Of a DNA stretch of 64,000 nucleotides, positions 42,671-44,445 are shown piece by piece. The DNA comes from Marvania coccoides (lineage: Eukaryota; Chlorophyta; Trebouxiophyceae; Chlorellales; Chlorellaceae), in contig OY978098.1 of assembly GCA_963854735.1 (NCBI GenBank), forward strand, positions 1,059,501-1,123,500, given 5' to 3'. The notes under the pieces were generated by a model. It searched no databases and had not been told where the DNA came from. It saw only the letters and a program-made list of their open reading frames with translations. Within the stretch, counting starts at the first letter, position 1. Each line of letters opens with the position of its first letter. A program made the position numbers and the translations under genes.

Positions 42671-43320
42671 CTGAATTTTTATGTTAGTTTATGGCATGGT
42701 TCCGGCTCAAACAGCTACTCTATCTGAGGGAAGGACGACAACCTTTCAAAAAAAAAATGAAAACAAAGTATGGCACCAGCTGCACCCAAAATGTATGAAT
42801 TCGTCATTCAACCTTCATCACAACGCATTCTGCACAATTTCCATCTTCAGCCTCTCCTCCAGCTCTGGCATGCAGCGGTGCAGGCACAGCAGAGTGCTTC
42901 GTATGTGCATCTATGAAGTCGACTTCTTCAGCCTTGAGAACAGGTGCCGCAAGTCCTCAGGGTGCTTTTGCCCAGACAAATGCTGGGCAACGAAATATTG
43001 GCTTGGGATGGTGGGCTTGGGGGGTGTCGCAGCGGCCAATAACTATTACGCAGAGATACGATTTTTTCGCTCGGTTTTACAGCAGCACCAATCAGAAGAG
43101 CCCATGCGGCCGAATGAATACATGCTTGGCAGCACCCATGTTCACGGAGATGGGAGCAGCGCACAGCTGAGACCGAGCGGCGTGTGGGGGCGGCTGTAAG
43201 GGAATGTCAGAGGGCGAAAGAGATTTCCATTCAATTTTGCAATATTGAATATCTTGAGCTGAAACTTTGCCAAAATGTTCCTCTCGCAGCCTGAGAAGGT
43301 CCCCAGGGGTTTAAAAAGGT
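42671..43320. other. Unassigned region with a possible coding remnant
   Basis: Minus-strand sequence at 42835-43000 reads VAQHLSGQKHPEDLRHLF and, after an in-frame TAG, LLCLHRCMPELEERLKMEI, both protein-like and in one frame. A plus-strand frame also stays open at 42913-43170. Neither matches a family I know; a pseudogene exon is possible. Confidence 0.2.
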
Positions 43321-44316
43321 ACGAAGGGCACGCACTACCACTGTGCTAAGGCGGAATGTCGCCGCAGCTGCATTGTTTGTCAGCGCGTCAAAAAGCCCGC
43401 TGCGTTGCCCGCTGGTCTTTTGCAGCCCTTAGAAATACCTGATCGCCGTTGGGAATCCATCTCTATGGATTTCATTGTCCGCTTGCCTGAAACTATGCGT
43501 GGTTTTGATGCTGTGTTGACCATTGTGGACCGCCTGTCAAAAATGGTGTATTTTTTGCCCCTCACTACGAATTCTACCGCCGTTGAAGTCGCTGAATTAG
43601 TCGTAGAAAATGTTGTTTTGCTGCATGGCGTCCCGCGTAGCATTGTGTCTGACCGGGACCCCAAATTTGTTTCACAGTTTTGGCGTTCGCTCTGGGATTT
43701 GTTAGGCACACAGTTGGCGATGTCAACTGCCTACCACCCACAGACGGACGGCCAAAGTGAAGTCATGAACAAGTTTTTGGAGCGCTACTTGCGCTCATTT
43801 TGTGCTGCTGACCCTGTTTCTTGGGACCGTCATTTGAGAAAAGCTGCTTTTGCTTACAACAACTCCACCCAAGTCTCCACTGGTTTTAGCCCCTTTTTCA
43901 TGAACTTTGGACAAGACCCTCGCACGCCAGCCTCTCTTGGCCTGTCACATGCCGTTGCTACAACATCTGACGTTTCTATATTTGCTGGTCGCTTAGACGC
44001 CGTCACTCAGGCCGCCCAGGCCTGCCTGATCGCATCTCAAGCGAGTATGAAAAAGTTTGCTGATCGTCGCCGCCAAGATGTCGACTATTCCGTTGGTACG
44101 GAAGTCATGCTGGATTCTAAAAATGTATCGTTAGCTGGAGATCGCGCCATTGAGCTGCAGCCGAAATATGTTGGGCCTTTCAAAGTTGTTGAACGCATTG
44201 GAAAGTGGGCGTACAGATTGGAAATGCCTGATTTTTTCAGAGGCCACCCTGTATTCCATGTTTCCTTTTTGAAGCTGTACCACGAAGACGATACCCAATT
44301 TGAGAAGAAGGGCTGA
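43321..44316 (+). mobile_element. Ty3/gypsy retrotransposon integrase fragment
   Basis: A continuous reading (no ATG needed) begins before 43350 with a partial zinc finger (CIVCQ gives the CxxC of HHCC). It continues through the integrase core: MDFIVRLPETMRGFDAVLTI (first Asp), SDRDPKFVSQFWRSLWDLLG (second Asp), AYHPQTDGQSEVMNKFLERY (Glu). The C-terminal region contains VGPFKVVERIGKWAYRLEMP and HPVFHVSFLKLYHED, typical of Ty3/gypsy elements. Stop TGA at 44314-44316. Reverse transcriptase, RNase H, protease and gag are not found upstream in the window, and no LTR is visible between the stop and the tRNA 44 bp downstream. The integrase reading itself is uninterrupted for over 300 codons, so decay is recent or the fragment is under selection. 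Confidence 0.88.
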
Positions 44317-44359
44317 ATGAGGATAACCTAAAAATCAAGTGTAAAGTTTTGAATGAAAA

Positions 44360-44437
44360 AACGTGAGGTCATCGGTTCGAACCCGATAGATGGCACGGTG
44401 GGCCGTCTTAGCACAGTGGCAGTGCGTACGTCTCGTA
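44360..44437 (+). tRNA. Circularly permuted tRNA-Thr(CGU) gene
   Basis: The 3' half (44360-44395) precedes the 5' half (44402-44437), separated by six bases, cggtgg. 5' half: acceptor GCCGTCT, TA, D stem GCAC/GTGC with loop AGTGGCA, G26, anticodon stem TACGT, loop CTCGTA. 3' half: A38, ACGTG, variable AGGTC, T stem ATCGG/CCGAT with loop TTCGAAC, acceptor AGATGGC, discriminator A. The seven acceptor pairs (one G-U), four D, five anticodon (one U-G) and five T pairs all form between or within the halves. Invariant positions T8, A14, G15, G18, G19, A21, T33, A37, C48, G53, TTC, A58 and C61 are all present. The anticodon CGT reads ACG (Thr). The break lies at 37/38, the usual tRNA intron site. 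Flanking A-rich leader and T-rich trailer can pair, as needed for a bulge-helix-bulge substrate. CCA is not encoded. Function is inferred from the structure. Confidence 0.88.
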
Positions 44438-44439
44438 GA

Positions 44440-44445
44440 TTTTTT
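44440..44445 (+). terminator. T6 Pol III terminator after the permuted tRNA
   Basis: Six T residues start two bases after the 5' half ends. This is a standard Pol III stop. The same T run could pair with the A run before the 3' half in the precursor. Confidence 0.6.

Follow-up and report, generated by a model that had tools for sequence, protein, structure and literature searches.

Within the stretch of Marvania coccoides DNA analysed here (the window, 64,000 nucleotides, C2:1059501-1123500 of a 22.46-Mb, 15-contig assembly), positions 44360-44445 raise the question of whether a tRNA-Thr(CGU) whose 3' half is written upstream of its 5' half can be a working gene. The first-pass annotation had claimed a circularly permuted gene of this extent, which our analysis reproduced to the base. 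We consider it highly probable that this nuclear locus is a type II circularly permuted tRNA-Thr(CGU) gene, broken at 37/38 and present once within the scope of our searches, and that it is transcribed and processed via a circle. From its sequence features it is very probably functional, with expression deduced from anatomy. Coordinates of all features are collected in the table below.

Anatomy of the permuted locus

Reading the sequence in the direction of the gene, tRNA positions 38-73 (36 nt) come first, followed by a 6-nt spacer and by positions 1-37 (36 nt), so that the reversed order and six-base spacer described earlier could be read directly, while the ordinary order, with the 5' half upstream of the 3' half, is not found at 44360-44437. 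The rejoined halves amount to 72 nt, which ARAGORN identifies as tRNA-Thr(cgt). Its 21 stem pairs are complete, namely 7/7 in the acceptor stem (one G-U), 4/4 in the D stem, 5/5 in the anticodon stem (one G-U) and 5/5 in the T stem. By eye we additionally found T8, A14, G15, G18G19, T33, G53, T54T55C56, A58 and C61 all in place, and the claim of a complete cloverleaf with a 7-bp acceptor stem and the listed invariant bases is thereby borne out. CCA is not encoded, A73 being followed directly by CGGTGG, in keeping with eukaryotic tRNA genes. The T6 run begins two bases past position 37, and TTTT is absent inside 44360-44437. As is expected for halves in reverse order, the gene was missed both by ARAGORN on the whole window (0 genes, rejoining being needed for the call) and by Rfam at gathering scores (0 matches at the locus).

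Table. Coordinates and properties of the tRNA genes, gene parts and neighbouring features (positions in the window unless a contig or locus is named)
Feature	Position	Strand	Details
A/T-rich leader	44330..44359	+	A or T at 24/30 bases
3' half of tRNA-Thr(CGU): 38, 39-43, variable loop, T arm, 3' acceptor strand, A73	44360..44395	+	AACGTGAGGTCATCGGTTCGAACCCGATAGATGGCA
Intervening sequence CGGTGG	44396..44401	+	removal by RNase P and RNase Z expected after circularisation (mechanism: excerpts of PMC3978253)
5' half of tRNA-Thr(CGU): 5' acceptor strand, D arm, 27-31, loop CTCGTA to 37	44402..44437	+	GCCGTCTTAGCACAGTGGCAGTGCGTACGTCTCGTA
T6 run, likely Pol III terminator	44440..44445	+	sequence after the 5' half: GATTTTTT
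Second tRNA-Thr(CGU), 5' half only, degenerate and in opposite orientation to the gene	43320..43355	-	identical at 29/36 bases
T5 run past the lone 5' half	43313..43317	-	
Truncated Ty3-type (Metaviridae) integrase frame	43405..44316	+	between the tRNA pieces; context only
18-nt motif	43254-43271	-	GGCAAAGTYTCAGCTCAA
18-nt motif	C3:340552-340569	-	
18-nt motif	C5:154769-154786	+	
Permuted Thr(UGU)	L082		spacer 16; R1 56.6 bits
Permuted Asn(GUU)	L080		spacer 51; R1 55.7 bits
Permuted Ser(GCU)	L084		spacer 6; R1 44.4 bits
Permuted Val(AAC)	L068		spacer 10; R1 56.0 bits
Permuted Leu(CAG)	L076 / C2:846662-846785		spacer 7; R1 40.8 bits; then a tandem partial copy with its 3' half short of the anticodon arm
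Permuted Leu(AAG)	L078		spacer 6; R1 32.2 bits
Permuted Trp(CCA) with T-loop insert	L032 (C4:11359-14372), 1362-1529 of the locus		spacer 7; R1 only 21.2 bits, 3' half assigned by hand; T loop split after TTCG by 89-nt GTGAGT...CTCTCAG
Ordinary nuclear tRNAs, no intron noted: Val(UAC), Gln(CUG), Met(CAU), Gly(UCC), Glu(UUC), Asp(GUC)			RF00005
Ordinary nuclear tRNAs with intron: Cys(GCA), Lys(CUU), Thr(AGU)			RF00005; introns of 9, 83 and 36 nt, respectively

The distinctness of the locus was assessed with a covariance model (R1) trained on the genome's nine ordinary nuclear tRNAs after permuting them at 37/38, with the Thr(CGU) gene left out. R1 scored the gene at 68.7 bits (E=4e-23), compared to 12.1 bits for the runner-up in the 64 kb and to partial matches of at most 29.8 bits at the nine ordinary tRNA loci. 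Likewise, a strict rule-based scan of both strands of the window found this gene alone, and returned nothing from 100 window-sized order-1 Markov sequences. Together with the sister genes described below and the ARAGORN call on the rejoined tRNA, the R1 result supports a break at 37/38 and the architecture of the algal genes described so far, both of which the first-pass annotation had assigned.

The gene sequence has one match in the genome, a result which excludes near-identical copies only, since the 81% identical half in the window was missed by the same search. With up to 3 mismatches, the D-arm pattern of the 5' half gave 29 matches compared to 25 for the backward control, so most of the 3-mismatch ones are due to chance; exact matches were restricted to the permuted gene and the lone half. 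A nuclear site that differs from the pattern at 2 positions, C7:337772, may be part of a further Thr-like gene. The search for a normal Thr(CGU) gene elsewhere, which had been suggested beforehand, yielded none among the RF00005 matches (63 of 454 first-look candidates scored, the nuclear ones typed) or from the D-arm pattern; a diverged, intron-split ordinary copy may exist elsewhere.

The leader and trailer had also been claimed to form a bulge-helix-bulge. Pairing is indeed possible: the final bases of the leader can form a 4-bp helix with loop bases 33-36, and its upstream part an 8-bp helix with the trailer, giving a relaxed bulge-helix-bulge with a 4-bp central helix. In constrained folding, however, 23 of 200 shuffled leader/trailer pairs were equally good, so the claim holds for pairing potential and not for distinctness from chance. 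Over six permuted genes the shuffles were equal or better in 23, 29, 66, 22, 155 and 72 of 200 cases, and since no gene stood clearly above them, we do not rest the case for a permuted gene on this motif. Free folding of the linear precursor (leader, gene and trailer) was discarded as a source of evidence, with a z of 0.22 and 120/200 shuffles equally stable; in its best structure the T and acceptor stems are formed and the D and anticodon stems are missing.

An identical order and pairing would arise if the locus were a leftover of a tandem tRNA array, joining the 3' half of one ordinary tRNA to the 5' half of the next, as the first-pass annotation had offered as its alternative, and permuted genes have been proposed to originate, among other ways, by tandem duplication (PMC3978253). 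We nevertheless regard this origin as highly improbable, since the missing outer halves left no visible trace in leader or trailer, where no tRNA-like sequence was seen, both pieces stop precisely at 37/38 with a Pol III-type T run directly after 37, and seven other isoacceptors share the layout, their spacers ranging from 6 to 51 nt.

A probable relic half and a retroelement beside the gene

The surroundings of the gene raise two further explanations. The integrase frame stops 43 bp upstream of the gene, and across it, about 1 kb upstream of the gene, lies the lone 5' half. With half of the gene repeated in inverted orientation on the far side of the integrase, the locus could be part of a mobile element, i.e. 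a tRNA-like end or a tRNA-derived repeat of the Ty3-type element. We give this hardly any credence, since the integrase has 32 genome matches compared to one for the tRNA gene (a search informative on near-identical copies), and the 5'-half pattern, even with up to 3 mismatches allowed, is exact at the gene and the lone half only. The 32 integrase matches include 25 on C3 at ~1.94-2.28 Mb, which is perhaps a centromere or other repeat-rich region.

The same neighbourhood could alternatively point to a silent pseudogene, in which a once-real permuted gene has been unexpressed since the retroelement inserted and the half copy 1 kb away is other debris; a site 43 bp past a shortened retroelement is possibly an unstable place for a gene, and both a degenerate half copy and a truncated integrase adjoin it. 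We judge silencing to be quite unlikely, since the gene retains its 21 stem pairs, the invariant bases examined and its T run, whereas the relic half has drifted, and since no Thr(CGU) gene that could replace the permuted one turned up within the limits of our search.

The lone half stops at position 37, as permuted 5' halves do, and judging by its sequence it is therefore best read as debris of a second permuted gene. As a working partner for the intact 3' half it was rejected, only 5/7 acceptor and 3/5 anticodon-stem pairs being formed. Over the stretch 10-82 nt beyond position 37, its downstream sequence matches that flanking the permuted Asn gene at 84% identity, and the 18-nt motif lies ~49-60 nt past the 5' halves of the relic Thr, Val and Asn. 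At up to 2 mismatches this motif has five genome matches compared to 1 for the backward control, and additional tRNA genes may lie beside the two remaining sites, C1:663242 and C1:2688421. For the likeness of flank and motif we propose, as alternatives, a mobile repeat that inserts directly downstream of these genes or a duplication common to them. The motif was rejected as a general downstream element, since at least 6 mismatches were counted within 260 nt after Thr(CGU), Leu(CAG), Leu(AAG) and Trp; Thr(UGU) and Ser(GCU) offered merely 37 and 46 nt for this test, and the 200 nt downstream of each of the nine ordinary genes held no match under 6 mismatches.

Sister genes and the nuclear tRNA set

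RF00005 detects 61 tRNAs at E<=0.001 genome-wide, nine of them nuclear, and a laxer E-value added one further match only, which is organellar. A nucleus needs many more than nine. Inspection of loci picked up by pattern searches provided seven sister genes, all of type II (37/38), and ARAGORN accepts 8/8 rejoined permuted tRNAs, Thr(CGU) included, with the insert left out in the case of Trp. Among the 17 nuclear tRNA genes that this partial search resolved, eight are thus permuted, which is likely an undercount, since a single T-arm variant was searched.

The strict scan is passed by six of the eight. Asn(GUU) fails with 4/5 anticodon-stem pairs and Trp(CCA) on account of its T-loop insert. 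In 7/7 permuted genes with the trailer read (all but Asn), a run of T4 or longer begins at most 10 nt past position 37, against a background in which 3013 of 31982 20-nt windows contain T4. The spacer of Thr(UGU) contains TTTT, which counts against that gene.

The yield of the individual searches varied. One pattern gave 17 matches compared to 9 in the backward control, where the 11 nuclear ones comprised five tRNAs (relic half, Trp, Met, Cys and Thr-AGU) and six with nothing. Another gave 9 versus 1, with two tRNAs (Val-AAC and Val-UAC) and five with nothing among 7 nuclear matches, while a further one gave 4 versus 0, namely Leu(CAG), its partial copy, Leu(AAG) and a lone half (L079). The T-arm pattern gave 36 versus 27, with 20 nuclear matches including 4 known ones (the Thr(CGU) gene, Glu, Cys and Asp). 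Reading 8 of the 16 remaining nuclear matches revealed three well-formed permuted genes, one weak candidate (L081), two Ser 3' parts and two loci (L083 and L086) with nothing.

Several of these loci depart from the common layout. L081 (C9:367650-367800, minus strand; 27.8 bits) displays a T arm, a 7-bp acceptor stem and a D-arm-like sequence in permuted order, with no assignable anticodon arm. L085 (C4:509446) and L087 (C9:472956) are Ser-type 3' parts in ordinary order with T runs directly after them, outside the RF00005 matches. L079 (C9:405999) is a lone Leu/Ser-like 5' half next to a long T run, with no T arm in the 120 nt upstream. At C6:847123, 847173 and 847234, a T-arm match precedes a pair of D-arm matches, each with 3 mismatches and separated by 61 nt, an arrangement that might represent a further permuted gene whose 5' half is duplicated.

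After removal of the Trp insert in silico, ARAGORN recognises a complete tRNA-Trp, and the borders of the insert look spliceosomal. A bulge-helix-bulge at the insert was not evident by eye, the fold being uninformative, as was a splice-site consensus derived from hexamer counts of the window. As a speculative, rather doubtful extension, permutation might be a main way in which nuclear tRNAs are written here, beyond the 11 of 43 in Cyanidioschyzon, with at least one gene, tRNA-Trp(CCA) at C4 ~12,859, combining the 37/38 permutation with an 89-nt T-loop insert whose borders resemble spliceosomal ones. If true, tRNA-Trp(CCA) would need two kinds of splicing.

Predicted maturation and comparison with known systems

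Transcription and every processing step are deduced from the anatomy of the gene, following the route of Cyanidioschyzon merolae and green algae. Pol III would produce one RNA comprising leader, 3' half, CGGTGG, 5' half and trailer, probably from a promoter in the A/T-rich upstream region, and would halt at the T run. The transcript is expected to adopt a cloverleaf open at the anticodon loop, where tRNA-splicing endonuclease would remove leader and trailer. A ligase would then join 37 to 38, yielding a circle from which RNase P and RNase Z would excise CGGTGG before CCA is added. This circular-intermediate pathway of endonuclease cleavage, ligation, RNase P/RNase Z processing and CCA addition has been shown for C. 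merolae and green algae, as excerpted from PMC3978253. The tRNA-splicing endonuclease domain PF01974 (tRNA_int_endo) has two matches in the present genome, with 63 and 53 bits.

Five long open reading frames of the window, not all of them proven genes, contain 137 Thr codons, and ACG accounts for 31 of these. With ordinary Thr(AGU) and permuted Thr(UGU) and Thr(CGU), every Thr codon can be read. Since the permuted Thr(UGU) might read ACG by wobble, the Thr(CGU) gene need not be essential.

For the protein of one neighbour in the window, the best named among 120 matches listed are Nannochloris sp. 'desiccata' (61%) and Micractinium (59 and 58%), followed by Chlorella vulgaris and Auxenochlorella (55% each), with unnamed sources reaching up to 68%; Nannochloris and Auxenochlorella both belong to the Chlorellales. 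The best solved match for Rubisco, 8q04, is presumably from Chlorella. We take the pieces of C15 (99,873 bp) to be green-algal plastid genes and those of C14 (49,038 bp) to be mitochondrial genes. The host thus looks like a chlorellalean green alga, a lineage outside the carrier groups named in the first-pass annotation. The 99.9- and 49.0-kb contigs compare with a plastid of 84.6 kb and a mitochondrion of 54.0 kb in Auxenochlorella UTEX 250-A, likewise of the Chlorellales, for which excerpts of two papers (PMC12633428, PMC12636532) report permuted tRNAs, a nucleus of ~22 Mb per haplotype and an initial tRNAscan-SE search that was similarly incomplete. The list of carriers in the first-pass annotation (red alga, prasinophytes and nucleomorph) did not include the trebouxiophytes, to which the Auxenochlorella reports now extend it. 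Among the literature searched, mostly titles and the beginnings of abstracts, no carrier in the Chlorellales besides Auxenochlorella was found, and in a Cyanidiophyceae paper of 2026 (PMC13353863) the term permuted stands in the reference list only.

The closest counterpart is the permuted type II Thr(CGT) gene of C. merolae (Table 1 of PMC3978253, in excerpt), which shares isoacceptor, 37/38 break and absence of an extra intron with the gene described here, and differs in belonging to a red alga and in an intervening sequence of 31 bp compared to 6. For C. merolae the same excerpts report T stretches downstream of permuted genes and additional breaks at 20/21, 50/51 and 59/60. Type II genes are described for prasinophytes and nucleomorphs (PMC3978253 and PMC4494063, in part). 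In Ostreococcus, Micromonas and chlorarachniophyte nucleomorphs all but one are of type II, with spacers of 5-64 bp (Maruyama 2010, as tabulated in the excerpted PMC3978253). That table holds at most 6 permuted genes per genome and no Thr among its green entries, in contrast to at least eight here, two of them Thr. The Cys(GCA) gene of O. lucimarinus, which carries a spare 5' half downstream (PMC3978253, in excerpt), recalls the tandem Leu(CAG) half, and the latter bears, together with the relic Thr half, on the origin and decay of permuted genes.

Permuted tRNA genes are rare, the review of 2014 counting 34 of them in seven organisms (PMC3978253). With seemingly at least eight in one genome, and Auxenochlorella as the sole other carrier found in the order, the trait appears to be wider and denser in green algae than in the reviewed cases. 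Since ordinary annotation misses such genes, small algal genomes seemingly short of tRNAs may hold many permuted ones. The kind of gene is already known; what is notable is the number in one chlorellalean genome and the insert in tRNA-Trp.
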